64,000 nucleotides of DNA, taken from positions 12,710,001 to 12,774,000 of the forward strand of contig OX344753.2 in assembly GCA_947034885.2 (NCBI GenBank), written 5' to 3'. The notes under the pieces were generated by a model. The model saw nothing but the letters and a program-made list of their open reading frames with translations. It ran no database searches and had not been told where the DNA came from. This DNA is from Thuidium tamariscinum. Taxonomy: Eukaryota > Streptophyta > Bryopsida > Hypnales > Thuidiaceae. This document shows, in pieces, positions 3,001 through 35,982 of the stretch (positions within the stretch are counted from its first letter, which is position 1; the number at the start of each line of letters is the position of its first letter). Position numbers and translations under genes: made by a program.

Positions 3001-5048
3001 TGCACTGAAAATTACAGCTCGAGCTTTGAGTTCTTTTAAAGTGGTAGTCACATTCTCAAATGCAAATCACGCAGTCCAACTGGACAATCATGCCACAGAC
3101 AAACTATTGCAGTCTGTTGAAATGATGGCATCGTCTCTTCAAGTACCCAGATCAGGTGTAGATTGTCTGGCAATCTGTATGGACTTAACACGATCTCTGC
3201 ATGAATTCCCAACTGGAGAATAGAGCCAATAGAAGTGAAACTAGAAGCCTGCAGTTGGTGGTGAAGCTATGTCATTGCCTCTCCAACAACCAAAATCAGG
3301 CTTTACCTTAGATTGTCTGACAGTACGACTGCAAGCCTGTAAGCCTTGGCATGATGTAATTGGAATCTGATGCAAACACTGAAAACAGCAAGAGAGAATT
3401 AATGAAGGTGAGAGAATGTCTGTATACCAGTTGCGTCCGACGACCTCCTTGGGCGAGTACCCGGTCATGGTGAAGAACCCCGCGCTGGCATACAAGATGG
3501 GAAAATCCGGGTGAGTGGCGTCCGACACCACGAACGTCTGCTGGAACGTGGAGAGCGCGTCCTTGATCTCGCGCGACACGCGCGGCAAGTTGGACGGAAG
3601 GCTACTGTCGCTGCCTGCGTCGGACGTTTCCGACACACGGGACGCTGGGTTCATGGGCAGCGTTATGGACACCGCGCGAGCCTTCTCGCTATCTCCCGAT
3701 CTACCACCATTCATTCAAACAAAAGCTCAGTCAGTCAGTGGCTTAAGGGCACTACAACATGACGGTTGCACTGTATCATCATTTATCTTGCAATGGTTTG
3801 GAGCGGATCAGTAAGTTGCCTTAAAACCCATGGTCCATTGCAAACCATACTTTGCCTTAAACTCGTGGTCCATTCTATTCTATTGCAAACTATTGCAAAA
3901 GTGCAGCGAACTTGTTGCAAAAGTCTTGGTCACAGCCTAAACAATACGAAGTGCATGCCTAAACCGTTGCAAAAACTACTCAAAGTTGCAAATACTGTGC
4001 ACAATGTTGTATTGATCCGTTGCATATTGTTATTAGACTTCTGGCTGTTATTGTAACCCGTAACCGTAATCTCAAATAGTTGCAAATACAGCGCACAATG
4101 TTGTAACCAACTATTGCAAATTGTCAGTAGATTCCTGGCGGTCATTGCAAACCGCTGCAAAAACTGCATAGGCAATCTCAGTTTTCTGTGCTAGTAAGGT
4201 GAGATTCGCAATGGGCTGGCGATGGGGAAGGTGAAGAGGAATTGTGCAATGCGAGAAAATTCTCACCGCCTGTCACCCGAGCTTCGATCGCCCGATCGCC
4301 GCGTCTGCACTCCTTGCAGTTTCCCCGTCTCGGCGTCCGCTTTGAGCACCAGCCCCCACTCAGCCACCCGATCCGCCATAACATCTTCCGACATCTCCTT
4401 CCGCTCGGGCGACTTGGCGCCCTCGTCTCGCGCCACCATCTTCTTCGTCAAGTCAATCCGCTTCGCTAGGTTGCTCCTCGCGTCGTCCTCGGCCTGTTTC
4501 TTCAGCTTGTCGATGGTCCGCTGCCGTTCCTCCGCGAGGAGTCTGTTGGTGGTGGATTTCGGGTTGTTTTTCAGGTCGTCGGAAGAGCTCCGGTGATGGC
4601 GAGGGACGCCGCGGGGCTTTGGCGCCGGGTTCTCGTCGGAGCCGATCACGGGCTTGGGCTTGTACTCGGGGGTGTCGAAATTGATTTCCCACGGCATTGG
4701 CGCGGCGGGATTCGCATCCGTCGCGACGGGTAGTGCAGCAGACTTGGCAGTTTTCGAGCTCAATGGGAACTGCGGGCTTACAGGTGCCGTGGCGGGAGCC
4801 CACGGGGGTTCAGTGCGCATTGTGGGTGGTGAGGGCTTCGCAGCGGATGCGACTTTTGCCTCCTCGACGCCCTCGGGCACGGATTTCCCAAGAAACGATT
4901 TACCACTGCCAGACACGTAGCGCGTACTCGCGGGCGCGCCGCCGAAAACCTCCAGCGACTTACGCTCCGCACGCGAGGCGGCGGTGAAGCGGCCGCCGCG
5001 GCCGCGGGAGCCACTCGGGGCGCCAGGCTTGCCTACCGCCTCTTCCAT
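1..5048 (-). CDS. PHOT: Phototropin blue-light receptor kinase, 5' part (partial, runs off left edge)
   Basis: Plasma-membrane-associated blue-light receptor; LOV domains bind FMN and control a C-terminal Ser/Thr kinase in phototropism and chloroplast movement (family knowledge). Minus-strand exons: 5048-4267, 3700-3428, 2893-2619, 1753-1417, 871-670, 119-1 (continues outside). All introns are GT-AG and every phase matches (2,2,1,2,0), giving 662 codons plus 2 nt. Residues 1-260 are a basic, Ser/Pro-rich N-terminus with a charged helix at about 165-210 and the family motif [10 protein letters not shown] near 227. LOV1 is about 302-415 with FQQTFVVSD and GRNCRFLQG; its photoactive Cys352 codon is split by intron 2. 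The hinge (444-610) has RRKS and RRSS sites of possible 14-3-3 type. LOV2 starts near 611 ([14 protein letters not shown]) with GKNCRFLQG, Cys646. Start: ATG at 5046-5048 has a G at -3 and +4; the GTG at 5072 is not a plant start. No phytochrome module, so not a neochrome. Confidence 0.93.
120..669. repeat. Phototropin intron 5, degenerate tandem repeat
   Basis: The intron before the LOV2 core exon consists largely of about four diverged copies of a unit of roughly 100-150 bp. Each copy contains variants of GGGACGGAGAA, then GCAAAACCTTGAATC, then GTCCTAGTTTT. Copies are recognisable near 290, 415, 500 and 630. No coding potential was seen. Confidence 0.55.
1960..2560. repeat. Phototropin intron 3, degenerate minisatellite
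   Basis: Most of the 865-nt intron 3 (1754-2618) is a loose array of short units built on CTTCAAAGCTCAAGGCACTT-like words (for example near 2025, 2110, 2170, 2265, 2390, 2470). The units are strongly diverged and no fixed period is clear by eye. Confidence 0.5.
3760..4190. repeat. Phototropin intron 1, TTGCAAA-rich direct repeats
   Basis: Intron 1 (3701-4266) is rich in TATTGCAAA/TTGCAAAA words. It has a direct repeat of about 100 bp: AGTTGCAAATAC followed by GCACAATGTTGTA occurs near 3980 and again near 4077, each followed by a related stretch containing TTCTGG or TTCCTGGCGGT. No exon is needed here because phases close without one. Confidence 0.5.
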
Positions 5049-7910: not shown

Positions 7911-10420
7911 ATAATATTTTAGCAATGGCACAAGTATATTTGTTTTTATTAGTTTAGATTGCTTTAAGAATATTTATTTTAAGAGGATCCTAGGAACCAA
8001 AGAATGTATTATTTAGATACTTAAAGGTAAGAATTATGCAATTCAAAGTTTTATTAAGAAAATTTAGAATCTATGGTATATAATTTTCTTGTTTATATGT
8101 CTCCAAGCCATTCAATGTTGATTCAATAGTCTCTTACATAATCACATCTAAAAGTGACTTGTCATGCTAGCCAAGTTGCAATGTCCACTCCTTCTACCTA
8201 TTATGAGCAACAACAAAGAGGCCCTTATCCAAAACTTGCACTTCAATCTTGATGTGGTATTGTCACCAACAAATGAAGAGCTATAGAATCCATAGAATAA
8301 TAGATTTGGTAGTTAAAAGGTATTGTAGCCAACAAATTTGGGAACATCAAGAACTTATACAAACTTTCTAAACATTCTCAAAGTATTTATCTAGACTAAT
8401 AATGTAATAAGGCCACGAAGATATAAGTAAATCAACTAACAATCCTATTAGACCCCAATTGTAATTCTACCTATGGTTTCCATCCTACAAATGTCATTGG
8501 TGCACTTCAATAATAAAAACATTGGAAATACTCTTAGTATGATCTACTTTCTCAAGTATTTGTCATGTGAAGATTCTAGGGTCATTGCAAGAAGTGAAGA
8601 AACACCTGTCGATTTTGTTGCATTTTGCAACAATACTCATGACTTTTTCAGAAGTACTATAAAATTAGAAAAAAAAAATTAATTAAAAAAAAATATGAAT
8701 AATGTATATACCTCTAAAATGAAGGTTTTCACCGAAGGAAATTGATAGAAAAATTCTCTAAGTAGGAGAACTTGAAAAATACCAAATCTTAAGAAAATAG
8801 GTACTTTGATTCAAAAAATAGGAAAAAATAGGAAAAATAAGTATTTTCAAAAAATAAAAAGTGACCATTTGCAACAACTTTATAGAGATGGTCATTCACC
8901 AAAAAAACCACCCAAATCATAATTTATATGTTTCAAAATACAAGCAGAAAGAAGTTTACTTTGTAAACCTCTACACCACATAAAGTTAACTATTTTTGAA
9001 AATCCTTCCCTGTAAAGCTAGAAGTCTACTAGAAGACCATTTCTTCCAAATTTCATCTCAAAATCATAAAAAAAAAAGGTATTCCATAGTACTAAAAAAT
9101 CCTAAACTACAAAGTGTGACATTCAATCAGGGTCTATTTTTGGATAGTAAAATATTTTTGAAAATTATTAAAAAATCAAGGAAGGTGTATAATAGTTATG
9201 AGTAACTTCTCTATAAAACTTGAGTCATTTGGAGCCAAAACACAAAAGTTATGGCCAAAAAACAGATCAGTATACAACGTGTGACACAAAATAGTACGGG
9301 TGTTTCTTGCAATGACCCTCTAATGCACCAACAATTGCGTTATTTGGATATCATATGCAAAATCTATCTAATAGATGATCTAGGATCAATGTTGGTTCTT
9401 ATATTTAGATGGCATATATTCTCAAAATCAATACAAATTCATCATTCAAGATTTTAGATATTACAATAACAATAAGGTGTGTGTTATTTAGAAACTTTCA
9501 TCTTCAAGGTTATCAAAACTCTTTAAAGATATGATCTTCAATTAAATGAGGGAAAAGTTAACCTAATTTGTATAAACAACTAATCATATCATTGTACTTT
9601 GATTTTCTTATTTTATAATGTGAAAAATTATTCTTGAACTGGAACAATGGTCACTTATACTAAAAGTGAAGTTGCATTCTCTTAACAATTGAATTGCCTT
9701 ACTCCAAAAGGTTACCTGATAACTCACCACTCATCGATATGGAAGCACATACAATTATTTGAATTGGGCCCAAAACCAATGTACTAATCCATGCCACACA
9801 CAAGGTTCTAGCTTCATGAAAACTATTGCATTTATATTGTACAATAACAATAAACATTTATACGAATGCAAAGTATCAAAAAAATGAGTGCAAGGCAACC
9901 TAATTCCAGTCATTAGTGTAGTTGTCGACATAGTCATTCTTCACGGTTGGTATTTTATAATTATAATGACTACTTCAAGAATCTACAATGATGGAGCAAA
10001 AGTGCAACTGTGATCTACATATATGATAATTTTATGAATTTATTCTATTAGTAAGATAATGTATCTCACTATAAGAATAAGTATTAATTTGATTAAAAAT
10101 TGAAAATTGAATTCTTTAGTAATTATTTTAGAGAGAGTTGAAAATTAAATAAATGAATGGTTACAAATGCCTAAATATCATAAAATGTGCAAAGTAGTGA
10201 ATTTCAAGTCATCAAATCTCAAAAACTTAATAGTTTGATTTTTATTAATCCTTGAAGTTCTAAGAGTCCCCATAGAAGGATCTTGGAGGTTTGACTAGGT
10301 ACCTATGATTTTAATTTTTTGGCAAAAAATTTTGAATTTTTTTTCAAGACAAAATAATTAGTTAGCTTTCTAGAAACTTAACTTAGTGTACTCTAAGATA
10401 GGAAGATTGACTCTTCATCT
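7911..10420. other. AT-rich intergenic DNA, no gene recognised
   Basis: About 2.5 kb of very AT-rich sequence. Open frames are short and without recognisable motifs. No terminal inverted repeats of the families described elsewhere were identified, although old degraded copies are likely. Confidence 0.5.
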
Positions 10421-10570
10421 CCTAAAGGACCAACTATATTTTTTGTCTACATAGTAATTTTGGACAACTCACTAAATATGAAATTTTAATTTTTTTTTCC
10501 CTTGAAACTTTTGTACAAAATGAAAATGAGGTTTTCTTAAAGGCCCAAAAAATTTCATAACTTTTGATTA
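10421..10570 (+). mobile_element. Fragment of TTAA-type element
   Basis: CTAAAGGACCAACTATATTT near 10420, then ATTTTGGACAACTCACTAAA and a later AAAGGCCCAA word, match the left 200 bp of the elements at 10996 and 21058. The TTAA end is missing, so this is a truncated or decayed copy. Confidence 0.5.
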
Positions 10571-10995
10571 TATAGTTCAAGGGTTCTTGCATGATATGCA
10601 GTCTTTTACTTTGGTGAAGGAATCAAAGAAATTTTAAAAATGACTTTTTTCATAAAAATTTGAGATTGATTTCATAGATTTTTATATATGTAGAAGAAGC
10701 ATTTGAGGAGGGGGGTACTACTGTTCTCCTTGTTGGCTTCTCTACACAAGCTAGTTTAGAGAGGGACAAAGCCATAGTGGTCAAATTTTGACAAATCTAG
10801 TAAAATTTCACAAAAAAAAGGTTGTGTGGAAAGTCTTGAATCATTTCATTTTGATAATGAGATGAGAGTTATGAGAAGTTTTAGTGTTCATCTATTGAAT
10901 CATTTTCTATTTAATTCTAACTACTTCTTGTTTTTCATATATGTTGTACAATTCCAAATAATTTAAAATTTTACAAGTATGCAGGCAACTTGTCT

Positions 10996-12888
10996 TTAAC
11001 CCCTGAAGGACCAAACTATGTTTTTTGGCAACATATGATTTTGGACAGCTCACTACGGATAAAGTTTTTATTTTATTTTCTTTGAAAAATTTCACACAAC
11101 ATGTGCCCAAGGAGTAGCTTTAACCCCTAAACCCCTAAACATCGTTTTTTGAGATTATAGATTTTTTGGGCAGCTCACTACAGATGGAGTTTTTTTTTTT
11201 TTTCTTTGAAATTTTGATACAATGTGTGTCCAAGGAGTAGCTTTAAGGCCCAACAATTTTCATAACTTTTGACTTTGTGGATAAAAAGTTATGGCATGAT
11301 ATGTCACTTTGTTTGCTCGGCGGGCAGCCCGGGCAGCTGAAAAAACTTTTTCAAAAAAACTTTTTTTTAAAAAGTGAAATTTCAAATCGGTTCTTTAGGT
11401 TTATACAGACATGTGAAGCTTTGAATCAATCCATTCCGATCAATGAGTCAAAAGTTATGAAGATTTTAAGTTTGGGGTAGTTTGCGGCCAGTTACAGAAT
11501 CTGCACAGCACAAAAAAAGTTTGAAATTCTTCATTTAATTCAATTTTTCATATTTTTGAAAAAAAATAAAAGCAAAAGCTGTAGATTGTTTATTTCAACA
11601 TTCTAACCATTGGGATTGAAAATTTTCAATTCCATGAATAAAATGTTCACAATTTAGTATTTTGGCTCATTTTTTACTTCTTTCTACTTACTTATTTTTT
11701 CCTATATGTTGTACAATTCCAAATGGTTTGAAATTTTTTGAGAATGTAGCCAACTTCCATTGAAGTAAGAATTCAAAGAGTAACCACCATTTTGAATTTT
11801 TTTTCACACAAATGTGACCTTGTGAAGTGCAGCTGCCCGGATTTTCGCAGGGATAAAAAAACAGTTTTTGTCAATTCAAATGCTTATATCTTGCAATCTA
11901 CATGGTGGAAATTTCTGAAATTTTTTCCACATGTTTACAAACCACCTTACTACAAGATCCTACGGTTACATGAGTCAAAAATGTGTTTTTTAAAAAAAAT
12001 TGCTCTTGTATTAGAAATGGCAGTTTTGGAGCAGTTTTTTTTGGTGAAAACGTTGTTAGGGGTTTAGGGGTTAAGGCCCAACAATTTTCATAACATTTGA
12101 CTACATGGTTAAAAAGTTATGACATGATATGTTGTTTCCTTTGATCGGCAAGCAATAAAAAAAACTTCTTTAAAAATCATTTTTTTAAGAAATTAAGATT
12201 TGAAATTGGTTTCTTTGATTTTTATCTAAGTAGAAAGCTTTGAATCATTCCATTTTGATTAATGAATCAAAAGTTATGAGGATTTTAGTTTGAAGTAGTT
12301 TGCGGCTAGTTATAAATCTCTACACTACAAAAAAAAGTTTGAAATTCTTCCTTTAATTCAATTTTTAATATTTTTGAAAAAAAATTAAAAAATTGGGTGT
12401 ATATTTTTTAATACAAAATTTCAACCATTGGAATTGTCTTCTTTTAGCTCTATAAATAAATTGTTAATATTTTAGCATTTTGGCTCATTTTCTGCTTCTT
12501 GCTACTTACTATTTTTTCCTATATGTTGTACAATTCCAAATGATCTGATTTTTTTTGGCATGTAGCCAACTTCACTTGAAGAATGAATCTTAAGAGTTAC
12601 AATTATTTTGGACATTTTACCATACAAATATGGTCTTTTGAAGTGCAGGTGCCCGAATTTTTGTAGTGATAAAAAAATGATTTTTGTCACTTCAAATACT
12701 AATATCTTGCAATCTACATGGCAGAAATTGCTAAAAAAATTCTCACATCTTCTTAAATGTGTTTTCTAAAAGATCCTATGGTTACTTTTGTTCAAAAATA
12801 TTTTTTTCTTAAAATTTGGTAGTTGTCTAAAAAATGACAGTTTTGAGTGGTTTTGGTGAAAACATAGTCAAAAACCTTTAGGGGTTAA
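10996..12888 (+). mobile_element. TTAA-type (piggyBac-like) element carrying a nested second copy
   Basis: The left end is TTAA (10996-10999) followed by CCCCTGAAGGACC; the right end is CCTTTAGGGG followed by TTAA (12885-12888). It is interrupted at an internal TTAA by another element (11120-12074). After removing that insert and one TTAA the element is about 942 bp and matches the copies at 21058-22000 and, inverted, 33973-34879. It has no transposase-length open frame, so it is non-autonomous. The family call rests on the TTAA target and the ends starting with CCC. Confidence 0.75.
11120..12074 (+). mobile_element. Nested TTAA-type element inserted inside the previous one
   Basis: Bounded by TTAA-CCCCTAAACCCC at 11120 and GGTTTAGGGG-TTAA ending at 12074. 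The host sequence either side joins as AGTAGCTTTAAGGCCCAAC, exactly the uninterrupted sequence present inside this same copy (near 11237) and at 23172. This shows target-site duplication of TTAA. The left end has an extra CCCCTAAA. Confidence 0.8.
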
Positions 12889-13161
12889 GAATGAATCCAA
12901 GGAAGCAACACCAACATAGACATTCAATGAGTCGTCAAGCTTCCTTCTTCAAAGTATCCCATATTCTTTGAGGATTCACGACAATCAATGGATTTCATTT
13001 TAAAAACTACCTCTCCACTCTTCAATCTCCCAAATTATCAATAAAGTAATTCCTTCACTCTACTATCAAAAAAATTCTTGATGACAAATGATATTTGGAC
13101 TCAATTTTGGACTTTTGAGATAATATTGGACATTTTTTTGGTTTACAACAACTTGGGCATT

Positions 13162-13438
13162 TAAGGTAGGAACACCCAAAAGCGCCACTTATTCATACTG
13201 AGCCTACTTCCTACTATTAATTAGTTCAAATTTTTACGTAGTCTTGTTGGCAAGTGAAAGCATGTTCCAACGCACCAAAGAACGCAGGATTTGAATACCG
13301 TATGCAAAAGTTATTAACAGTCAAAGTCTGTTTCTGAAAGCGCCCTCTACAGTCTGTGAACATGACTGATTTTGAAAATGTATGTGCACTATAGATGGCG
13401 CTTTTAGGAACAGGGCGCTTTTGGGTGTACCTACCTTA
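13162..13438. mobile_element. MITE family A (TA target, AGGTAGG ends)
   Basis: About 275 bp with inverted ends AGGTAGGAACACCCAAAAGC and GCGCTTTTGGGTGTACCTAC-CT, flanked by TA. The interior has the family marks GTTCCAACGCACCAAAGAA and CAGTCTGTGAACATGACTG. Other copies: 16754, 24823, 25089, 30347, 57125. Confidence 0.75.
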
Positions 13439-13664
13439 ACCCTTGAACGACAGACTGGTGACTGTGAAAATCATGCATTTTGATTCCGTGTGACATCATC
13501 TACTTTGGAAAAGCCAAATATATTCATTGGAAGTCAAAGCCCTGTAGAAGATTTCCCCTTTTCACCCCTAAAACCGAGGACCAATAGTTGCACTTCCATT
13601 CTACAAGGAAGATTCTCTCTCATTCTGCGGACGCAAAACGTCCTCTTCGACGTTTAAGGGTTAA
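13436..13664. mobile_element. Short TTAA-type element (about 229 bp)
   Basis: Starts TTAACCCTTGAACGAC and ends CGACGTTTAAGGGTTAA. Inverted ends are about 16 bp and both outer borders are TTAA. Its first TTAA overlaps the last bases of the adjacent family A MITE, so it probably inserted at that junction. The interior is unlike the 940-bp members. Confidence 0.6.
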
Positions 13665-14035
13665 TTCTTGCTGAATTCGGCAATTTCCCTTTCTCAATAT
13701 GTTTAGCTTTTGGCTTTAGAAAAATAATATAATCAATTCCTGTTACCTCTGCCCTTAAGCAGTAAGCACTGTCTTTAACAAAAATTGGATGAAAAGTCAC
13801 TTTTTTCTTTCATCCTGCAGTCTGACGTGAAGTCATCCAACTGACACATAGTGTTCGCTACAGGGTTACCTGATGCCGAATCTGTCCCTCGCATGGGGAA
13901 ACGAAAGATTTTGACAATCCCTAGTATTGGTTTAGTTTGAATATTTAATTCTCCAGTCAAATCCAAAACAATTCAACGAAACTCAGTTTCATTTTGCTTA
14001 AAAAAAAATTAAACCCAAAACAATGATGAGTGTAC
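13665..14035. other. No gene recognised
   Basis: Spacer between two MITEs. A 63-codon frame on the minus strand (13775-13966) has no recognisable motif and is not supported as a gene. Confidence 0.4.
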
Positions 14036-14478
14036 TAAGGTAGACCAACCTATTACCACCCTGATTTGCAATCTGACTATCTTGGGGCCAATTCCAAGAG
14101 GGACACATGTTTTTCAGAGGTGTGTGCATGTTTCACAAATCAAATTCAAGTGGAATTACAATTTTCTGATCAAAATTGTAATTTTTATAAATTTTTGAAG
14201 TGTGCGACCCTAAATCACAAAAGTACCCAAAACTAGGGTCATGAACACCCTAATAACAACCCATAACCACCTTCTCATGTGTCTATAAGCATCTAGGTAT
14301 TCACCAATCAACTATTGCCACATTATCCTAAATGACATAAATGCATTGATTTTGTCAAATTTCTAGACAAAATTGGCTCATTTGTGGACAAATTTGGATC
14401 GGGTGGTATGGGTGGAAATGGGGCCATAAATAGGGTGACGAAAATGGGGTGGAAATGGAATTAGGTCGGTCTACCTTA
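14036..14478. mobile_element. MITE family C (TA target, AGGTAGACC ends)
   Basis: About 440 bp bounded by TA-AGGTAGACCAACC and GGTCGGTCTACCT-TA. A truncated relative with the same interior (CAAGTGGAATT, TTGTAATTTTT, GAATTTTTGAAGTG) starts at 26191. The end motif shares AGGTAG with families A and B. Confidence 0.65.
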
Positions 14479-14559
14479 GTTGGGCTCTTGTTGGTAGTCT
14501 CCAAGCTTAGTTCATGATAAACAACTGAACCCCACTCTAAAAACAACATCTAATACAAT

Positions 14560-14830
14560 GGTACTTTTTGCTTTCTTCAATACACCAATATAACAACAAT
14601 GTACATTTCAAGAGGTCAGTAGTCACTTTCAATGACCATTCAACTTTAAAATTTTGTAACTAATTCCTCAAAGGTCCAAAAGTATGAAACCACTTGTGTT
14701 CAAATAATGTTAAATCCATTTTCCTTCCTCAAAACAATTTACAAAAATTTGTTTTAGCGAGATGAACTTCCCCAAATGGAATCAGTCTTTAAAAAAGTTG
14801 CTTTAAGAGCATACTACCCTACCCTACCCT
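14560..14830. mobile_element. MITE family B relative, decayed
   Basis: The interior (AATGTACATTTCAAGAGGTC, GTAACTAATTCCTCAAAGGT, AGTATGAAACCACTTG) matches the elements at 57391 and 57903 and, inverted, 15159. It ends in TTGCTTTAAGAGCATACTAC. The left inverted end is not clear. Confidence 0.5.
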
Positions 14831-15158
14831 ATGTGATGGTCAAATTCAAAAATAATTAAGTCATTTTTTGTGAAAAAAGTGTCACATGTCATCTTGCAAT
14901 TAGAGTGAGGTAGCATGGACCCCTAGAAATCTAACACAAAAATCCAAATCAAACCTTCAAAATCAATACCTTTGTTACTACAGAAAAACTAATGTTTTAG
15001 AGATTGACAACATGGACAAGCATTGATAAGACTCTATATACTAGTAAGAGGTTCAAGCCGATTTTGGGTTTCCAAAACTCATAGTAATTTGAATTCAAGG
15101 AATTAGCAATCTCTTTGATTTCTTTCTTCCTATGAGGCAAAATTTTTACATTCCCATA
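14831..15158. other. No gene recognised
   Basis: AT-rich spacer with a short CCCTA run at its left border (14817-14831). Nothing else was identified. Confidence 0.35.
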
Positions 15159-15455
15159 TAAGGTAGAGGGCTGTAAAAGCGACCCTTTACCAGCTGATTT
15201 GCATTTCAGGGAAGCTAAACTTCTCAAAACAATTTCTAGTAAATTTTCGTGGTAAGAAAAATGGAATTGGCATCTAACCCAAGCCATTTCATATTTTTTG
15301 GACCTTCATGGAATTAGTTATGAATTTTTGAAGTTGAAAACACAGTGGTTTCTAAAAGCTACCCCCTCCTGAAATGTACACTTTTGGTACATGTTAGAGG
15401 TAAAATCTACCGGATCGCTTTTAGAGACAGGGTTGCTTTTACAGCCCCCTACCTT
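15159..15455. mobile_element. MITE family B (AGGTAGAGGG ends)
   Basis: About 295 bp with inverted ends AGGTAGAGGGCTGTAAAAGC and GCTTTTACAGCCCCCTACCT. TA flanks the left side and TC the right, a decayed TA duplication. The interior contains GTACACTTTTGGTACATG. Related copies: 14560, 57391, 57903. Confidence 0.7.
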
Positions 15456-16076
15456 CCTGCTCGAGAAATGTGCAGAATCCCTCAGACAAGTGGTCGACTA
15501 TGGGTGATTCCTACCACAAGGGAAGCTCGGTGTGTCTGTCAACTTGTGAAGCGAATGTTTGTCAATTTGTGAAGCGGATGTTTGTCAACTCGTACAGAGG
15601 GCGGGGGCTCTTACTAATCCTGTGTCGAATTCCAGGTGAACAAATTAACGGTTCCGTTCTTGGGTGCAGGGGAATGATGGGAATCGATTTCGGCAGCCAG
15701 CGCCGTGGTGGGAAGGCCGTCTGACGGCTCAGGGGGCTGGGACTGTACTTGGGCTCCGGCTCTCCCTTGTGGCAAAGATCCCTTCACATGCCAAGCGAAG
15801 CCAAAGAGGGTTGGAAACTTGGAATCAGTGACAGAGATTAAGTGTGAAGTTAAGTTAAGTTAATGCCAGTTTGTGTGAAGAAGTTGGAGGAGGATCTGGC
15901 TTTAAATAACGAGTCAATGTGAGGCAAGGACATAGCATGTTGGAGCAGGGTGGGTTTTTTGGGTTTCGGACAATTGGTTATGTGGCCTTCTTTATTTTTA
16001 AACAAATGAAACGGAATTTCATTGGCAGAAGAAAAATATACAACCAGCCACAAGTGGCCTCAAGAGTAGTATTGAA
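15456..16076. other. GC-richer stretch without a recognisable gene
   Basis: From 15456 to about 15840 the sequence is GC-richer than its surroundings. It contains a small tandem repeat (AATGTTTGTCAA followed by TTGTGAAGCG, twice, near 15555 and 15580). Frames of 60-90 codons have no recognisable domain. It may be a downstream exon area or relic of the transposase-like gene that follows. Confidence 0.35.
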
Positions 16077-17723
16077 TCACACATATTGATATACTTGTAC
16101 AAATGCCAAATCTTTTACTACCTTGTTTTTTTCTGCATCCAATAAAGTACACCGAAATAGAAAACGAAGTTGACCATATGAAGTCCTCTCTTCTTCACCA
16201 ACATTTTGCATTTGAATGGCAATTGAACTGTACCATTCTTTCCTATGAAATTCATGAGATGCTCGGGCATACATAAGCCAATCGCCAAATCGAATACCAT
16301 CACTTGGAGGTATAGCCAATGATCCATAAACATGCAATACCTGTAATTGACAAAAGAGAACATCATATGTCAACAATTGTGAAGAAGCCCCAAAACATTT
16401 ATCAAAAAGTTACAAAATGGTGGACATTGTTCACTTACTTCAACATCTATCAAATTATTGTCATAGGTGTAAGCTGTCAAGGCTGTTGCTAATTCAGAAA
16501 CTATCTTTGATTGCACAAAAAGTATCCGTTGCAATTTAGTTGGATTTGAATAGCTAGATGTGGCAATGTTGTCAAGCTCCAAAGTTCGCATGTATAGGGT
16601 AGTTTGGTATCCAGCTAAGACATTTTGCCCAACCTCCACAATGTGTGATTAACTCAAAACATTATTGTATGGTCAAACAATTGTAAATCTCAAACAATTG
16701 ATCATTATGATGATTTCATATAAAAGTTTCAACAACATTCAATTCAAAAGAAGTAAGGTAGGTACACCCAAAAGCACCACATTCCTAAAAGCGCCATCTA
16801 CAATGTGCATACATTTTTTAAATCAGTCATGTTCACAGACTGTAGACGGTGCTTTTCAGAAGCAAACTTTGACTGTTAATAACTTTTGCATACAATATCC
16901 AAATCCTACGTTATTTGATGCGTTGGAATGTGCTTTCACTTGCCAACAAGACTATATGAAATTCTAAACAACCTAATCACTAGTAACTAGGCGCAGTATG
17001 AATAAGTGGCGCTTTTAGGTGTACCCACCTTAAGTGTTAGAAGAAGGGTGTAGCTTCAAAGCAGAAGGGTTGCAAACCACTAGTATCATGATACTAGAAT
17101 AACTTCATTTTTATTTTAAAGATTAGTTACTAGACATCTAGCAGCAGCATGCTTCACACAACCTGATAACCAATCCAACCAAGTGTGTACAAAGACATTG
17201 AGCAAACAAACAAAAAATCATTTCAAACTTCTACTATAGATCCTTTGGCTATCCTTGACTCATTTAGCCCAATCTGAATGGAACAAGTTCGAGTAGCGAT
17301 TATTCAAATATTAAGATAAACCACCCAAAAGATTTAAAGCAAAGTGAAATTTAACCCATGTCAAATGATTATCAAGAAATTGTACGTAAGTTCTTAAGAA
17401 TTTTTTTTAATGCTCAAGTCTAAAAAGTTTGGGTCCAAGTCTAGAGCTGTTGTTTTCTCAATACGAGGTGCAAAACCTTCTCTTTCTTGGGCATTCTTTT
17501 GCAATGCTTGTAATCTTTTGTTGTGCTTGGCTATGTAGTTGATATAGACTTTTTGATTGCTACGCCTATAAGCTGCTTTCATTAAAGCAATATGCAAGTG
17601 TGCATAAAGGTTAGAATTGTATTCAAATGGTGCACCAGACTTGCAAATTGCATCCCTAAATATTTGCAATTTCCATGTCCTACATAAACTTTGAAATATG
17701 TTGTCTAAGTGATTGCACTTCAA
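16077..17723 (-). pseudogene. Plavaka/CACTA-like transposase gene remnant
   Basis: Three coding blocks on the minus strand. Block 1 (17723-17397): FRDAICKSGAPFEYNSN, then HLHIALMKAAYRRSNQ and KHNKRLQAL, a pattern I associate with the late part of Plavaka-type transposases. Block 2 (about 16626-16439): LELDNIATSSYSNPTKLQR. Block 3 (16340-16077): VLHVYGSLAIPPSDG, then YGQLRFLFRCTLLD and LAFVQVY. Blocks 2 and 3 are joined by a convincing intron: donor GAA|GTAAGT at 16438 and acceptor TTACAG at 16341, phase 0. A family A MITE lies between blocks 1 and 2. No catalytic core was found in the window, so the gene is incomplete. The family call is from memory of motifs and is moderate; an unknown host gene is the alternative. 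Confidence 0.45.
16754..17032. mobile_element. MITE family A inside the transposase-like remnant
   Basis: Bounded by TA-AGGTAGGTACACCC and GGTGTACCCACCT-TA. It is inverted relative to the copy at 13162: the CAGACTGTAGACGGTGC block is now on the left. It sits between two coding blocks, in what would be an intron. Confidence 0.75.
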
Positions 17724-17811
17724 AAATGTTATTTAAAAGAATTTTTTTAAATGACTTAAATTTTCTATAATTTGAGTTAAATGTTTTGTAACTTATAATT
17801 TGTTTCTTTTG

Positions 17812-18400
17812 TTTTGTAGTTTGTGACAAGTGATTTGTGTTTAGATTGTAAAGATACCTCTTTATATATACATGGGATGGTAGAAGGTAAGACAAACAAT
17901 GTCGAATATGTTGGGTACGTTTTGCGCTTAAAAAAGAACTAAAAACCAAATCCACCACCCTAAATCCTAAAACAACCGCCCTATATAGGACGGCACTTGT
18001 GGTCACCCTGCACAATTTCATCCAGGCCAATATCTTGCACCGTTGCAGTCATGTGCATTCAATGTTCTGTAGGGTCACTATCCTATGAGTTGTGTAGTTT
18101 GTGACAAGTGATTTGTGTTTAGATTGTAAAGACATCTCTTCATATATACATGGGATGGTAGAAGGTGAAACAAACAATGTGGAATATGTTGGGTATGTCT
18201 TGCGCTTAAAAAAGAACTAAAAACCTAATCCACCGCCCTAAACCCTAAAACGGCCACCTTAAACCCTAAAACAACCACCCTATATAGGATGGCACTTTGT
18301 GGTCGCCTTGCACAATTTCATCCAAGCCGATGTCTTGCATTGTTGCGGTCATGCGCATTTGATGTTCTACAGGATCACTATCTTGTAAGTTGTGAGGTCA
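17812..18400 (-). repeat. Tandem duplication of a transposase-like exon (two copies of about 285 bp)
   Basis: Direct repeat: TTTGTGACAAGTGATTTGTG begins both units, near 17819 and 18099. On the minus strand unit 2 (18376-18265) reads DPVEHQMRMTATMQDIGLDE, then IVQGDHKVPSYIGW and a stop. In unit 1 the same reading is broken by a TGA after EH and a one-base shift at HK. The peptide has the look of the Plavaka-type gene just downstream. Units also share CCCTAAACCCTAAAACG-like runs. Confidence 0.55.
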
Positions 18401-18509
18401 GTCAGATCCTACAATCTGGGATGGAATGTTGTCAAGGATTGCATGTGGGATCTACTTTGGAATACACAATTAAACATCAAGCCTTAATTTAGAGGGATTT
18501 TCATTGAAG

Positions 18510-19215
18510 GAGGCAAATTTTGAGTATACAATTTTGAATATTTAATTTCTCTATGCAATTTTTGTATATTTTGGCATTGCATGATAGATAAAATGAGGTT
18601 TTAGAAGCATTTTGGCAATAGTGTAGAAGAATATAATTTCACTCTCACATTATTTAACATTTTTACCCTCATCTTTTTCTATAGGCTTGAAGTTGCACAT
18701 TTTTTTCCAGGAAATTGGGCATTTAATTGCCTAAAAAAATCATGTGTTGTAGTATAGTGTGATGAAGAGGGAACACTCAAAACCACACCTTTGTCTTCAA
18801 TGTTTTTTTTGGTTTTCAAACCAATGGTTGTGTGGTCTTTCTTTCAAGAAGGTTTTGAGTGTATTTGCATCATGTCTCTACCAGGCCACTTGTGGCTAGC
18901 AATTTATATTTTAATCCTTTGCAATGAAATTTTGTTTAATTTGTATAAAAAAACAAAAAACATACAAAAAGGTTTTGAGTTTCTTGGTTCCTTCATTTTC
19001 AGGACTAAAATTGGAGGAAGCCATATTTGAATATGTAATTTTTATATGTATTGGCTTTGCACAATAGATGAAATGAGATTTTTGAAACATTGTTGCAACG
19101 ATTTTCAAGGGCAATATATATTGTTGTTTGGCATTTTTGAACACATTTTTTTCCCCTATAGGCTTGAAGTTGACGATTTTTTAAAGAATGAAGGCATTCA
19201 AATGCCTAAAAAAAT
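18510..19215. repeat. Direct duplication of about 210-225 bp
   Basis: 18510-18735 and 19010-19215 are diverged direct copies. Both share GGAGG, a TTTGAATAT word, TTGGCATTGCATGATAGAT or TTGGCTTTGCACAATAGAT, AAATGAG, CTATAGGCTTGAAGTTG, and CCTAAAAAAAT near the end. No function is evident. Confidence 0.5.
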
Positions 19216-19239
19216 GCTCATACCTGAAATTGCCATCAT

Positions 19240-19492
19240 GAAAGTTTGTATAAGTTACATGTCTAACGTCAATATGTTTGTATATTGAAGAAACAAGTTT
19301 GGAACATTTACCAAAAAAACACTTTGATTGATTCTTTGTGACTTTTGTACATGGGTTCAAAATGTTTTGTTCTTTGGTGTGTTATAGCTCTTTTTCACTT
19401 GCTAGCAAAAATATATATAAATTTGACCATTCGGCTCATGATAAATATGCATAGTAGCAAAAGGTGGCGGTTTTGGGGATATCCACCTCAGT
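19240..19492. mobile_element. Possible highly diverged family A MITE
   Basis: It ends in GGTGGCGGTTTTGGGGATAT-CCACCT and contains TTTTTCACTTGCTAGCAAAA and TTCTTTGGTGTG in the order seen in family A. The left end is not resolved. Confidence 0.3.
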
Positions 19493-20885
19493 GAGAACAA
19501 CATTGATAATTTTGACAAGCTACAAGATTCAACCTCCATTCTACTCCACACTACAATTATATTTCTACATCTAAGTAAAAAGAAGGAAGGTCTTTTCCTA
19601 AACTTTTGTAGTGATATTCCAAAAAACATCCCTCAAGATTTGTGGAAAAATGAGCCAATGTCTCTCATCTTTATAGATCCATCATTTAAATTCTTGAGAT
19701 TGTTGTTTTAGAGCTCAATTCCAAACCATTAATTCAATTGATTATCTACACAACTTGTCTCTTGTGAAATTGTGTACAATCTACTTTACATTAGAATGGA
19801 ATTAATGTAGCAATATGGTCCAACAATGCGGTGGTGGAAGTTGGATTGGGGTTGGTTTTTGATCATTCTACCTTATAATGCCAAAGCCTTGTTGACTTAT
19901 TACAACCCTTAAGTAAGTAAAGAAATAAATATGTTCATTTGCTTTGTCCATTGCAAAGATCATATGGCATAATTCAGCAACACATTGTCAATTGGAGTGT
20001 CTTTATTGATCAATGCAGTTTTATGGTGCATAGTTATTCTTTGTGAGAATTTTTTTGACATACTAAAACCCTCAAGGATTAGTTCCAAGCTCATGAAATG
20101 AGAAATCATTTCCAACCTTTTATTTTAAATTATACAAAAGTTTCAAATTTCATGTTTCTACTAAGGGATGATTGCAAAAAGCACCCATCTTATTTTTCGT
20201 CACACATTCATTGTGGAAGTTGTTTTGTGCACCATAAGTATTGCAAAGTTGATTGAATGAACATGAAATTCAAAAGTAAGCTTCCTATAACAATAGGAAA
20301 GGTACTTGAATTATTTGAATTTTTTCAAAATTATTCAATAGGTGAAACTTAATTTTGAATGTATATCACTCACATGGTTTTTGTGGTTTTTAGTAATATT
20401 GAGTACCTCTTTTGAAAAATTACATTGTCAAATTTGGTATGCTAGCTTTTCTGAGAGAAATACACCTTCATACGAGAGGAATTTTCAAAAACATGTTCCA
20501 AGTGTATTTTGCACCGGCCTAAAGTGTACTATATTCAAATTGAATTTATAATAAAAATAAAAATGTTTTTTTGGTTCCAACTTTGATCTTCTTTCTTTGC
20601 TCTTAGTTGAAAAAAATGGCCAATTTTTAAATAAAATTTCCAAGGCCATTTTCTAATTTTTGAAAATAGAAAAGTAGAAGTCTCATTTTTTAGCATATAT
20701 TTAGCCTATGGCTGAAATGGTATTTTAGGATACACCCTTCTAAAATATCAAAATAGAAAACCTTACCAATTGCAAGATCATGTTGCTTAAATTTCAAAAA
20801 GTAGTTTCATAAAGTTTTCCATATGGTTAGATTTCATCTTTCAAAAATTTTACACAATGAATAGATCCTACAACTTATTATCCTC
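19493..20885. other. AT-rich DNA, no gene recognised
   Basis: About 1.4 kb of AT-rich sequence with short frames only. No recognisable repeat termini. Confidence 0.45.
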
Positions 20886-22165
20886 CATAATGTGTTGGTC
20901 CTTTAGGGGTTAATCAAAATAGAATGATCCATGACTTTCCACGTATGTAAATATTTGGAAAATGGATTTCAAATATTTATTTCTTTAAAAAATGACTTTT
21001 TCAATGTTACCTTCACTACCCATGAGGAATGAAAATTACATATGATAGAATAACTTTTTAACCCCTAATGGACCAAGCTACACTTTTTGGCAACATAGCA
21101 ATTTTAGGCAACTCATTATGAATGGATTTTTTTTTCTTTGAATTTTTCACACAACATGTGCTCAAGGAGTAGCTTTAATTCCCCAATAATTTTCATAACT
21201 TTTGACTACATCGTTAAAAAGTTATTGCATGATATGTAATTTTCTTTTATCTCTAGGCAACCTAGGTAGCTCAAAAAACTTCTCTAAAAATCACTTTAAA
21301 AAAAATAAAAATTGAAATTGGTTTATTAAATTGATATCTTTGTGAAAAGTTTTGAATCATTCCATTTTGATTAATGAAATGAAAGTTACAAGGAGTTTTA
21401 GTTTGGGGTAGTTTGCGGGTAGTTATAGAACCTCTACTCTACAAAACAAAGTTTGAAATCCTTTACATAATTCAATTTTAAATATTTTTGAAAAAAAAAA
21501 TTTATTGGGTGAAGATTCTTTATTAAAATATTACAACCATTAGATTGGGGTGTTTTTCATTTCCATAATAAATTGTTCACAATTTAGTATTTTGAATCAT
21601 TTTCTATTTTTTTCTATTTCCTATTTTTTCTTGTATGTTGTACAATTCTAAATGATTTGAATTTTTTTGAGGATGTAGCCAACTTGCATTGTAGAATGAA
21701 ATCAAAGGGTGACCACCATTTTGAACATTTTTTCATACAAATGTGACCTTCTGAAGTGCAGCTACCTGGATTTTTGTAGGGATAAAAAAAGATTTTTGTC
21801 AATCCAAATGTTAATATTTTGCAATCAATAGGATGGAAATCTTTGAAATTTTTTCTACATATTTTCAAACCACCTTACTACAAGATACTACGGTTACATG
21901 TTTCAAAAATTATTTCTTTTCTAAAATTTTGCAATTATCTTAGAAATCACAATTTTAAAGCATTTTTGGTTAAAACATAGTCTAAAACCCTTAGGGTTAA
22001 CCGTGTAGTAAAAAATTATGTGAATTTTTGCACCTTCAACTACAAGTTTTGAAGACATGTTGTGCAAAGATTTCAATATAGAAAAACAATTTTTTAAAAT
22101 TTAGGTAGCCATCCAAAATTGCTATGTTGTCCAAAGAACACCATTTGGTCCTTTAAAGGTTAAAT
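20886..22165 (-). mobile_element. Old inverted TTAA-type copy, host of a later insertion
   Basis: Flanks of the 21058-22000 element belong to an older inverted copy: CAAAATAGAATGATCCATGA near 20918 on the left, and TTTTTGCACC, GCCATCCAAAATTGCTATG and TTTGGTCCTTTAAAGGTTAA on the right (22140-22165). Only the distal portion survives. A separate CCTTTAGGGGTTAA end lies at 20901. Confidence 0.5.
21058..22000 (+). mobile_element. TTAA-type (piggyBac-like) element, 943 bp
   Basis: Starts TTAA-CCCCTAATGGACCAAG (21058) and ends CCCTTAGGG-TTAA (22000). The interior matches 11120-12074 throughout (GTAGCTTTAA, TTTGGGGTAGTTTGCGGG, TGTTGTACAATTC, GTGACCTTCTGAAGTGCAGC). It lies in a TTAA of an older copy. 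No coding capacity. Confidence 0.75.
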
Positions 22166-22282
22166 GACTACCACATTTTATTTCTTAAAATAATAAGTGT
22201 AAGAATGACTTTAAATAGTGTAAGAAAAAAAAGGGGGGAGAATTGTCCTTTTCTATGCTCAAGCCCTAGTGTTAAACCCAAC

Positions 22283-23101
22283 GACGCTAGTTTGTGAGCC
22301 TAAAAGCATGAGCTTGCGAGTAGTGAGCGTAGGTTTTGTGAGCCCAGAGAATTAATAAAAAAAAACTGTGAATTTTTTAAGCCAAGAGAAAAAAAAAAGT
22401 GAAGTCATTTAAAAAAAATCTATCTATAGTAAAATTTCAGCTTTATGACCATGGACCTATGACCGTGGAAGTGTGGTTAATGTATTTTAAAATTTCAAAT
22501 CCTACTATCTCTAAAGGGCCTCTCAATACCTTCCAAAAAAAATTTTGAATTTTTGAATTTTTTTTGAGGTTCAAAATCCAGAATCTAATAAGGTTTTTTT
22601 GAGGGTGATGGAGTCATGATTTTTTTTTTTTTTTTTTCCTGACTTTATCACCCTGAAATTGATCTCTCGGTACCAAGAGAAGTTTTTTGAGGGTGAAAAG
22701 TCGCAACAAAAATGAACTAGTAACATAGTCAAAAAAAAAAAAAAAAAAGTTGAAAAAAAATGAAAAAAAAAGTTTTTAGAGCTCCAAAGCCCTCTACCTC
22801 CAAACCCCTTTCAATATCAAGAGGGATTTTGGAGGGTGATGGAGTTGCAAAAGAAATTTGAAAAATAAAAAAAAGACTAAAAAAAAATTGAAAAAAATTG
22901 AAAATCTTTTTTAGAAAAAAAGTTTTGAAAGTCACAAATTTCAAATCTCATGAAGGGGATACTAGATATAAAAATCCAAAATTCTTAAAGCACGGTAATA
23001 GGTCCATGCCCTAAAAATCACTAAAAATTTCACCAAAAATTGTAGGCTCACAAGCTCACAGGCTCATAGGCTCACGCTCGTAGGCTCACAAAAATAGCAT
23101 C
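22283..23101. mobile_element. Element with GTGAGCC-rich inverted ends (about 820 bp)
   Basis: Left end GACGCTAGTTTGTGAGCC followed by more GAGC-rich words; right end GTAGGCTCACAAAAATAGCA-TC, preceded by repeated GCTCACAGGCTCA words. The inverted match is about 45-60 bp with gaps. The interior is A-rich with poly-A and poly-T runs and three similar blocks ending in GAGGGTGATGGAGT or a close variant. A shorter relative is at 55769-55996. Confidence 0.55.
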
Positions 23102-23105
23102 CCCG

Positions 23106-23200
23106 GCTCATTACAGATGGAGTTTTTGTTTTGTTTTTCCTTGAAATTTTCACACAACATGTGCCTAAAGAGTAGCTTTAAGGCCCAACATTTTTCATAA
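23106..23200 (+). mobile_element. Fragment of TTAA-type element
   Basis: GGCTCATTACAGATGGAGTT, TTTCACACAACATGTGCC and AGTAGCTTTAAGGCCCAAC match part of the left third of the 940-bp family. The intact TTAA at 23178-23181 is the equivalent of the site used by the nested element at 11120. Confidence 0.6.
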
Positions 23201-24360
23201 CTTTAGACTAAACGTATGGTTCAAGTAATGAAAGCTACGTATCATATATATGACAAATAGTTCTAAAATAGATTTGAAACATGTCAATCCTAATAGTGGG
23301 ATTGTTGTTCCAAGTAATCTACAACCAATGAACCTTTTTGTTTTAAAAAAATGTGAAATTTGAATTAAAAAATCAATCCTATGTGATCTTTTTTCAAAAA
23401 GATGCATAGATTTCTTACAAAATAAGACTCATTATAACATTTCCATAACTAATTAAAATTGAATTAATAAATGCTTTCCATGTAGACATGCATATTATTT
23501 GTAGGATTTTTTTTTAAATTGAATTTTTTTCTGGCTTGCATCATTTATTTTGAACTAGGGAGGATATAATTTGGGTGGGTGGGTGGAGGGATACTAAGCA
23601 AATCACATGAAAATTACATTCCCAAAATGCAAATACGGTTTCTTACCTTCAATAGAAGTTTCAAGAAATTATCATAGGATTTGATACCATAGGAACTTGC
23701 CCAAAATTCGTAAAGCTCCTATTCATGATTTTGAACCTTTACATATTGACTAGTGTAAATGTTAGGATGGCATTTGGATGAATTTAGATGAAAGTAGAGA
23801 AAAGTGGATAACAATTACATTTCTGAAATATTAAGAAAACTATGTTATTTTGATTTTGTCTAATATAAATGAGCTTTTGCAAAAATTCAATCATTCCAAG
23901 ATTAATATAGAGAAGTGTTATTATTGCATAGTGCACTAATTGAATTAAAGTGAGTAGTAGAAGGAGATGTTTAGTATAACTTTTTATTTGATAACAACAT
24001 GGTTTTGGTGTTGAACCTAGTCATGCTCATGAGTCATTGTGCCACATTGAGTGAATTAAGTCATCTAAATTTACCAATTTCTTCTCTAGAAATATCATTG
24101 ATGTATTCAAATACCACCATGCTACATATGTTGGATGGTAAAATTGCTACCAATGGTACTAAAACTTGAGAGAAGGCAAATTCTTGAATATATATATATT
24201 CAAAAAAATTAATTTCCTAATTAATTATGCTTGAAAAAAGTTTTAGTTTCTACATGATTTGAGTTGCTAAATGCAAATTGTCTACATACTTGTTTTGTTT
24301 ATTGTATACGTTTGAACTTGATAAAAACAGGCCATTTTATATTTTAAATGACAAAGAATG
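23201..24360. other. AT-rich DNA, no gene recognised
   Basis: Short frames only. A G-rich patch (GGGTGGGTGGGTGGAGGG, near 23574) stands out but is isolated. Confidence 0.4.
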
Positions 24361-24805
24361 GAAACATATTCAAAGAACACATAGTCTTCACTCTTCACCT
24401 TTTCATCATGAGTATGGTTTTCAAAGACTCCATACCTACCTACAAACAAAAATTCCTCATAACTTTCACTTCATTAATCCAAATGGAATGATTCAAAACT
24501 TCCTACATATATGTAATCCTAAAGAATCAATTTCAATTTTTTAGTTTTTCAAAAAGTGATTTCTAAACAATTTTTTTTAGTTGCCCGGGTTGCCCAAAGA
24601 TCAAAGAAAATTATGTATCATGCAATAATTTTTTAACCGTGTAGTGAAATGTGATGAAAATTATTTGGCCTTAAAGCTACTCCTTGGATGCATCTTGTGT
24701 GAAAATTTCAAAGAAAAACAAAACAAAAAAAACCCTCCATTTGTAATGAGTTGCCTAAAATTGTCGTATTGCCAAAAAAACATAGCTTGATCCTCTAGGG
24801 GTTAA
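24361..24805 (-). mobile_element. Truncated inverted TTAA-type element
   Basis: AAATGGAATGATTCAAAACT, TTGCCCGGGTTGCCC, TTTTTTAACCGTGTAGT and GCTACTCCTTGGATGC lead to CTCTAGGGG-TTAA at 24802-24805. This is the reverse complement of the left portion of the 940-bp family. Confidence 0.6.
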
Positions 24806-24822
24806 TTGACATTCCACACTAA

Positions 24823-25408
24823 TGTAGGTACATCCAAAAGCACCACATTCCTAAAAGCGCCATCTACAATGCACATACATTTTCAAAATCAGTAATGTTC
24901 TTAGATTGTAGATGGTGCTTTCAAAAAAAGACTTTGGCTGTTAATAATTTTTATATATGGTATCCAAATCCTATGTTCTTTGCTGTTTTTAAAAAAAAAA
25001 AAAAATCCTATGTTCTTTGGTGCATTGAAACATGCTTTCACTTGCCAACAAGATTGTATGAAAATCTGGACAAGCTAAGAACAATAACTAAGGTAGGTAC
25101 ACCCAAAAGCGCCCTGTTCCTAAAACCGCCATCTACAATGCACATACATTTCCAAAATCAGTCATGTTCACAGACTGTAGATGGCGCTTTCAGAAACAGA
25201 CTTTGACCGTTAATAACTTTTGCATACGGTATCCAAATCCTGAGTTCTTTGGTGCGTTGGAACATGCTTTCACTTTCCCACAAGGCTGCATAAAAATTTG
25301 AACTAACTAATAACAGGGACTAAGCACAATATGAAAAACTGGTGCTTTTGAGTGTACCTACCTTAGACACAATATGAATAAGTAGCGCTTTTGGGTGTAC
25401 CCATCTTA
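24823..25408. mobile_element. MITE family A, outer copy split by a nested copy
   Basis: The left end is decayed (TGTAGGTACATCCAAAAGCA); the right end is GCGCTTTTGGGTGTACCC-ATCT-TA. The outer element carries a 13-base poly-A insertion near 24995 with a short duplicated CCTATGTTCTTTG on each side. It is interrupted at a TA by a second copy. Confidence 0.7.
25089..25365. mobile_element. MITE family A, inner nested copy
   Basis: Bounded by TA-AGGTAGGTACACCCAAAA and AGTGTACCTACCT-TA. Removing it with one TA restores ATAACTAGACACAATATGAA in the host, which matches GTAACTAGGCGCAGTATGAA in the uninterrupted copy at 16754. This fixes the TA target duplication. Confidence 0.8.
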
Positions 25409-26190
25409 TACAAATATGTACCTTTGATTTACATCAATAGTCATTGAAATATCTGGTGGCCGTACGTCGTGTTTCAAACATCTACCATTCTCCACGATAA
25501 GTCCAATTAATTTTTGTGGTACCGATAAAACCCAATGATGGATTTTCTGCAACACATGATGTTTCTCTCGCGTACCTTATGCACACACACTTACCATATC
25601 CAATTCATTATGTCCAGGGAGTGGGCCCTGTCGGCCAGTCCATTGCATACCGAATGTTTATCATAGCATATCGGATTTGACATGTGATTGCTGATATTGG
25701 CACAGACGCTGCACCCGGGCGTGGTCAGTTTGCTTATTACCCTTATGGGCTGAACCCCTGAACCCTGAACCCCTGAACCCTGACCCTGAACCCTGAACCC
25801 CTGAACCCTGACCCTGAACCTGATGATAATGCAGGTTTGCCCCCCTCCGGGTACCTAAAACCAAACCCAGGGCGCAGCAGGGCAGGCCGGGCCGCCTGCA
25901 CCCTCGGTGTGGCGTGGCATGGCGGGGGCACCAAATCATCAAGCTGCTGAGGTCCCGGCAGAATCTGAGTTGTGGAGCAGAGAAACTTGTGTAACTGAAG
26001 TTCTCAGGAATCATCAGTGTCCCCGCCCAGCTGCAATGCAAGTGGTGAAGCTGCGACACTGAGGAGGGAAGTCTGAAATCTGAAGATTTCAGGGAGTCGG
26101 AGTCAGCGCCCATTTTTTGGTTTTGCGCCCATTTTTGTTTTGCACCCATTTCTAATGAAGTGCCAAAGTGGCAGGATAAAATGTTAATTG
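25409..26190. other. GC-richer island, no gene recognised
   Basis: Less AT-rich than its surroundings. A 200-codon minus-strand frame (26263-25661) exists, but it begins inside a repeat, translates the CCCTGAA minisatellite and shows no domain, so I do not call a gene. Confidence 0.4.
25751..25821. repeat. CCCTGAA telomere-like minisatellite
   Basis: About ten 6-8-base units of CCCTGAA/CCCCTGAAC. It resembles a degenerate form of the plant telomere unit CCCTAAA but with TGAA throughout, so it is probably an ordinary minisatellite. Confidence 0.65.
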
Positions 26191-26460: not shown

Positions 26461-26464
26461 TCAC

Positions 26465-30622: not shown

Positions 30623-30636
30623 CATGATTACACGTT

Positions 30637-32015: not shown

Positions 32016-32019
32016 GGTG

Positions 32020-32230: not shown

Positions 32231-32260
32231 TTGCCAAAATCAACAATTAATGAATTAAAG

Positions 32261-33852: not shown

Positions 33853-33972
33853 CAGAAGTTTAGGACAAAAGTATATTGGTTTAGCCTATCATTATAGGAA
33901 TATTAATAGCAAAAATTTAAGGTAAGAACACTCAATGGTATCAATTAGTACACACGATAGTCATTCTAGAAT

Positions 33973-35975: not shown

Positions 35976-35982
35976 ACTTGTC

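Follow-up and report, generated by a model that had tools for sequence, protein, structure and literature searches.

A 947-bp element in a 64,000-nucleotide stretch of Thuidium tamariscinum DNA (the whole stretch that was analysed, hereafter the window) is almost certainly a non-autonomous, MITE-like piggyBac transposon that was put into a TTAA of an older relative by a transposase made elsewhere. We assign the elements of the window to non-autonomous piggyBac because they are flanked by TTAA, because the genome carries PF13843 transposases, and because their ends match those of a 7,251-bp transposase-bearing element.

The nested insertion and its TTAA boundaries

The features at the insertion, in window positions, are these.

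11124-12070, + strand: inner element, non-autonomous, 947 bp, ends CCCCTAAACCCCTAA... / ...TTAGGGGTTTAGGGG
11120-11123, no strand: left TTAA of the inner element
12071-12074, no strand: right TTAA of the inner element
10996-11123, + strand: outer (host) element, left part, with its own TTAA at 10996-10999
12071-12888, + strand: outer element, right part, with its own TTAA at 12885-12888
11236-11254, + strand: uninterrupted target AGTAGCTTTAAGGCCCAAC, inside the insert at the homologous position
10421-10999, + strand: older copy W, left part in pieces, reference positions 7-598 with 367-491 unmatched
12885-12924, + strand: copy W, resuming 3' of the outer element, with reference positions 597-634 at 12887-12924

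The outer element is interrupted by the inner element exactly at TTAA, with four bases duplicated and both junctions falling at element ends. The terminal sequences of the inner element are CCCCTAAA and TTTAGGGG, and the inserted length is 951 bp when one TTAA is included (947 + 4), so that the coordinates above bear out the preliminary description, which had claimed a 951-bp insert splitting its host at precisely this site. It had also described the host target as intact in sister copies. The 19-mer AGTAGCTTTAAGGCCCAAC is indeed uninterrupted at 11236-11254 and 23171-23189, and it recurs with one or two mismatches in five more places, against a mean of 0.00 in the shuffled window. When the outer flanks are fused at a single TTAA they give an unbroken alignment to 10 other places, with identities of 62-87%; that to 34834-34673 runs at 85% over 164 bp, and the weakest of the ten lies in element Q (62% over 90 bp). 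The word "sister" holds only in part, since the host is a family relative but an old one, 77.6% identical to the inner element, while the insert comes from a young family. Judged by these identities, the insert is young and its outer host is old, because copies of the insert elsewhere are 97-98% alike and the host is 77.6% alike.

The nest is three deep: around the inner element is the outer element, which in turn was inserted at the TTAA of a further family copy, W, a layer that the preliminary description had overlooked. The remainder of W was not found. Further TTAA-bounded elements of the window are the following.

21058-22000, + strand: element Y, same family, in a TTAA of family copy X (family alignment)
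20910-21063, - strand: host copy X, fragment between Y and Z (family alignment)
21997-22163, - strand: host copy X, left end (family alignment)
33973-34879, - strand: element P, a complete copy of the family measuring 903 bp when one TTAA is included, intact site elsewhere
35983-36910, + strand: element Q, related family, both ends aligning to the transposase-bearing L058 element
32261-33192, - strand: element Q2, related to Q, flanked by TTAA at each end but with a decayed outer motif
53616-54364, + strand: element R, composed of two left-end halves of the family in inverted orientation, 745 bp when one TTAA is included
13436-13664, no strand: small TTAA-bounded element of another family, TTAA at both ends
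30637-32015, no strand: TTAA-bounded element with ends TTAACCCTTAAAA, TTAA at both ends
38431-39218, no strand: TTAA-bounded element, TTAA at both ends
62739-62988, no strand: small TTAA-bounded element, TTAA at both ends
28903-29639, no strand: TTAA-bounded unit, a 94% copy of which adjoins the transposase frame at locus L053

The fragment of X is bounded by the TTAA belonging to a third element, Z, one end of which is at 20903-20913; the second end of Z and the rest of X were not found. P, unlike the nested family copies, resides in a different repeat, and its insertion site is uninterrupted in the repeat copy at 35071-35168 (94% over 98 bp, just 14 of them left of the TTAA). Element R is a fold-back form, having no right end and two inverted left halves with TTAA on either side.

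We counted 22 occurrences of the end motif TTAACCCYTNA in the window where 0.72 would be expected, and none of 100 shuffles reached 22. TTAA stands on both sides of 11 two-ended window elements, although this count is no independent test because the elements were partly chosen by that same motif. Inside the TTAA, a perfect terminal inverted repeat of 3-15 bp is found in nine of the 11, and in the other two, Q2 and R, it is 0 bp, the first base being altered at one end. A special preference for sister elements as targets was considered and set aside as unneeded: family sequence already contains 95 of the window's 490 TTAA sites, and nesting in relatives therefore requires no preference.

Other repeats also occur in the window. 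A second family of short inverted repeats (13158-13439, 16754-17036, 25089-25377, 30345-30622 and 57307-57389) has ends AAGGTAGG...CCTACCTT and motifs AAAGCGCC, with a duplication that could be TTA/TAA or TA; judged by its ends, it is not piggyBac. At 50748-52150 there are two inverted 578-bp arms, 99.3% identical and built of tandem units of about 177 bp. Units of this type also host the young copy L044, where the restored site matches at 92% over 300 bp, with TTGA replacing TTAA. At 25750-25820, units resembling CTGAACCC form a short tandem array that is telomere-like in appearance only.

Ends and target of the copies across the genome

The preliminary description had proposed a genome-wide search with the insert and an alignment of all copy edges, and had held that copies with a different target length would speak against its reading. 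A similarity search with the 1.9-kb stretch against the window's own genome (363 Mb, 19 contigs) returned 50 rows from 40 scored among 11,771 first-look candidates, and these include, besides the window copy, at least 39 further full copies of the insert that are 97-98% identical (query 120-126 to 1078-1102). We retrieved these 39 together with one 91% relative, choosing the 40 places by whole-element similarity, with no end motif, and locating their ends by extrapolation from the aligned body, as an independent test of ends and target.

The flanks read TTAA/TTAA in 38 of the 40 places, ATAT/ATAT in one (L042) and carry a 2-base offset in one (L048, the diverged 91% relative, which is 2 bases off yet reads TTTAGGGGTTAA, with TTAA present). 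The same 4-bp boundaries thus recur in the retrieved places, and a different target length did not appear: position directly gives a duplication of 4 bp in 39 of 40, and the fortieth also ends in TTAA. The copy at L042 (contig C6, 3020124-3021075) is a full one whose non-standard target is of equal length. A 3-bp TTA/TAA target and a 2-bp TA target were both rejected, as the retrieved copies have the fourth base fixed on each side and the ATAT/ATAT copy duplicates 4 bp. The termini are 5'-CC...GG-3' in all 40 places as printed, one right end having been set two bases short, and CCCCTAAA or a near variant stands at both ends of family copies. Divergence from the consensus averages 1.47% (range 0.43-2.53%, 39 copies plus the window copy), the 39-copy sample being the top of a ranked list and so biased, with a larger true diversity. 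The 947-bp consensus of 40 copies contains no stop-free frame of more than 80 codons.

Another way to arrive at a nested layout is recombination or duplication between repeats, with no transposition at all. In its favour, relatives do lie close together in the window, and 95 of 490 TTAA sites are in family sequence. Against it, however, both junctions fall exactly at element ends with exactly four bases duplicated, identical boundaries recur in the 40 retrieved places, and the insert is 97-98% like copies on other contigs but 77.6% like its host; the chance that recombination produced the layout is accordingly negligible. The 20-base flanks at distant copies look unrelated by eye.

The inner parts of the inverted ends covary among the 40 places, with CCCCTAA at both ends in 28, another form at both ends in 12, and no mixed copy. 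On the tree of element bodies the switch of end type needs three changes, and none of 200 bootstrap trees needs just one; the well-supported branches of that tree force a single end-type change. L035 carries CCCCCAA at both ends, yet is grouped by a weak fork with the other end type, a pattern that hints at copying between an element's two ends.

Transposase genes, their elements and the class assignment

No transposase was found by Pfam scan among nine long frames of the window. Nor did any Pfam family appear at an E of 0.1 when 10000-24998, 25000-39998 and 49000-63998 were read through in all six frames; in these scans stops were read as X, and the U-box gene, treated likewise, was recovered as a control. 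That gene accounts for two long frames at 40706-43378, with ARM repeats, a plant PUB model and a U-box (Pfam), and the frame at 3244-3714 carries a phototropin LOV domain (among solved structures it is most like 2z6c, phototropin-1, at 1e-23). By these genes the DNA is that of a plant. An Rfam scan of the window gave nothing at gathering thresholds, a search of a plasmid collection gave no match to the query, and two scans of viral contigs gave none, in collections that hold no plant genomes.

The genome as a whole is rich in transposase sequence. A search of it with the PF13843 (DDE_Tnp_1_7) profile, as the preliminary description had recommended, yielded 116 scored matches among 659 candidates (best 5.7e-80, each listed match exceeding the curated cut-off), and elements carrying the domain end in TTAA-CCC in nine of nine copies of one family, at both ends, and in a 7,251-bp element; PF13843 was found in none of 14 control genomes. 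Open frames among the listed matches run from 408 to 1214 codons, and in a number of the matches between one and three stops interrupt the frame. At L060, where 991 of 1023 codons were used, the PF13843 match reaches 4.7e-79, and the L060 and L114 proteins align to solved piggyBat (9c0f) and piggyBac (6x67) with three D motifs in register, although similarity to the piggyBac/piggyBat proteins is modest (phmmer 1e-27 to 7e-19). The aspartates of these motifs (D541, D630 and D747), which we take to be the catalytic ones, are invariant in all four aligned transposases (29-50% identical to the first). So are C842, C845, C863, C868 and H873 in the C-terminal part of the residue alignment, where a piggyBac transposase would be expected to carry a cysteine-rich zinc domain.

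We sought element ends around 31 of the 116 matches, namely 11 copies of the L060 family, L050, L053, L058 and 17 others. The L060 family spans 5,088 bp between TTAAs, with ends TTAACCCCTAAACGCCGG... and TTAACCCTGAAACGCCGG..., and has TTAA at both ends in nine of nine copies; its left end lies at TTAA in 10 of 10 copies besides L060, eight of which are among those nine. Over 3,984 bp, seven of these nine copies agree letter for letter and the other two are one base off; the family's frame is open over 1023 codons. A right end first paired with the L060 left end by end likeness was rejected, as ten other copies are without it, and the nearer one, at position 6984 of the stretch as assembled, is shared by nine of nine. 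Because pairing by end likeness proved wrong there, the right end assigned to the L053 element is tentative, as is that of the L050 element. At L062 one right TTAA serves both a letter-identical transposase copy and an CCCTAAAGGAC end alignable to the window family; it looks as though the transposase copy had taken the flanking TTAA of a window-family element as its target.

The strict motif TTAACCC[CT]T was seen at four of the 20 loci L049-L068, in a scan reaching 1.5 kb beyond the Pfam match. The criterion for choosing 17 downstream regions was a Pfam match ending at profile position 347; 15 of them show a TTAACCC-type end, which at L109 and L111 fits loosely; the end is lacking in the other two, L110 and L112. 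A left end was found in four of five upstream regions, with none at L118.

The closest to the window family among the transposase-bearing elements compared is the L107/L114 element (contig C7, 15191397-15198647, minus strand), which measures 7,251 bp with both TTAAs and holds an open transposase frame of 891 codons. The left end of P aligns to it over 174 columns at 69% (E=1.5e-24) and the right end of the inner element over 384 columns at 65% (E=3e-41), each alignment reaching exactly to the TTAA. Three further elements (L101/L115, L103/L116 and L113/L117) have their left ~210 bp in common with P and the inner element at 61.7-63.0%, and their right terminus is TTAACCCCTAAATGTCTTAGACTATGTTTT. 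Since both of its ends align to a transposase-bearing piggyBac element, the window family looks like an internally shortened derivative of such an element. At ~62-69%, however, end identity to the L107/L114 element is too low for direct parentage of the young copies, and none of the other transposase elements compared, all more distant still, emerged as an immediate source of the young family.

L058, an element with ends TTAACCCCTAAATGCC.../TTAACCCCTAAGTTCC... and a 774-codon frame, was likewise compared. Its ends match window element Q over 143 columns at 67% and 281 at 72%, and its right end matches the inner element over 199 columns at 67% (76 bits, with none of 100 shuffles exceeding 32.8), but its left end gives background only against the inner element and P (25.0 and 26.6 bits). 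It was therefore rejected as the source of the window family, the right end matching and the left end failing. The L058-type right end is seen again at L104.

TTAA is the target of more than one group of transposons, some Sola groups included. Sola-type elements are known from some plants, and a guide to plant transposons places them among the TIR superfamilies, with 4-bp target duplications and very variable ends (PMC10741241); the elements with related ends, however, have PF13843 transposases resembling piggyBac and piggyBat, and we regard a Sola origin as very improbable. Kolobok-type elements share the TTAA target, but the account of them in PMC9587614 gives termini of 5'-RR...YY-3' against the 5'-CC...GG-3' found in 40 of 40 places, and the transposase elements with related ends again carry PF13843, so that Kolobok is more improbable still. 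The preliminary description had deduced a piggyBac type from TTAA and CCC-starting ends, and had looked to an autonomous partner of another superfamily as the case against it. Its deduction has held: one family of PF13843 elements has TTAA-CCC ends in nine of nine copies, and the L107/L114 element, the partner whose two ends resemble those of the window family, carries PF13843 as well.

Published criteria for piggyBac, as set out in PMC2872659, are a TTAA target and ends of 12-19 bp with CC[C/T]T. TTAA is duplicated on both sides in 38 of 40 places, with empty sites restored; the short inverted ends start with CC[C/T]T, although in the window copies the perfect inverted repeats range from 0 to 15 bp; a DDE_Tnp_1_7 transposase is present in same-ended elements, the window element itself being without one; and the three aspartates are present in the aligned transposases.

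Probable mobility and comparison with known systems

A piggyBac transposase grips both ends of its element, excises it and joins the ends to a TTAA, which then flanks the element on both sides. For the 947-bp element, a piggyBac transposase encoded elsewhere in the genome would bind both ends, cut the element out and join it into a TTAA, leaving TTAA on either side. The TTAA targeted here would have been that of an older relative, itself sitting in the TTAA of a third copy. The element would retain the left ~170-215 bp and the right ~385 bp akin to transposase-bearing elements, and it lacks the gene. We infer that one of the genome's PF13843 transposases probably moved the 947-bp family and that some transposase may be active today.

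The L060 family and the young copies of the insert appear to be signs of recent activity. With its diverse open transposases, a family identical at seven sites and dense self-nesting non-autonomous populations, this is, on balance, probably a land-plant genome with currently mobile native piggyBac, though we hold this well short of certainty. A less likely but still serious alternative accepts the piggyBac class and has the transposases immobile today, the young copies having moved in the past or by means of an unexamined family. The one to three stops in a number of the PF13843 matches would agree with this, whereas the seven copies that are letter-identical over 3,984 bp, at separate sites and in a family with an open 1023-codon frame, speak against it.

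Genome engineering relies on piggyBac as a standard tool, one that was taken from insects and whose rules for target and ends are well established. A plant in which copies of a piggyBac transposase are abundant and in part letter-identical is an unusual host. If active, the system would supply a transposase that already functions in the cells of a plant, offer a natural example of cross-mobilisation of short elements, and allow study of how piggyBac came into land plants and spread there.

The preliminary description had called such elements rarely described in plants, which is true only to a degree. In the passage concerned, the seven TIR superfamilies named by a guide to plant transposons from 2023 do not include piggyBac (PMC10741241), but piggyBac-like elements are mentioned as occurring in plants (PMC8086355, PMC10813416), PiggyBac is listed among plant class II superfamilies (PMC10794571), and one 75-bp PiggyBac is counted in a grass (PMC8319324). 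The repeat annotation of the C-fern genome likewise counts 1,230 PiggyBac elements covering 122 kb (PMC6890710), which are counts alone in the portion of that paper concerned, compared with 116 scored PF13843 matches, many with open frames, here. Within the one open-access literature collection searched, superfamily membership is ordinary, and it is the host, the abundance and the apparent recency that are unusual.

The nearest parallel to the window family lies in the piggyBac CMITEs of corals, which, as described in PMC2872659, are also non-autonomous, with TTAA duplications and ends starting CCC[C/T]T, include insertion into a TTAA inside a related unit, and have one family whose termini resemble a piggyBac transposase element. 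CMITEs, however, are ~100 bp long (PMC2872659) against 900-960 bp for the window family, the young subfamily of which differs further in having a doubled CCCCTAAA at both ends. With piggyBac (6x67) and piggyBat (9c0f) themselves, the elements of this genome share the TTAA target, short inverted ends starting with CCC, the DDE_Tnp_1_7 domain and D motifs in register, but the host here is a plant, the elements are ~5-7 kb where their ends are settled, and the frames run from 774 to 1023 codons, counted from stop to stop.
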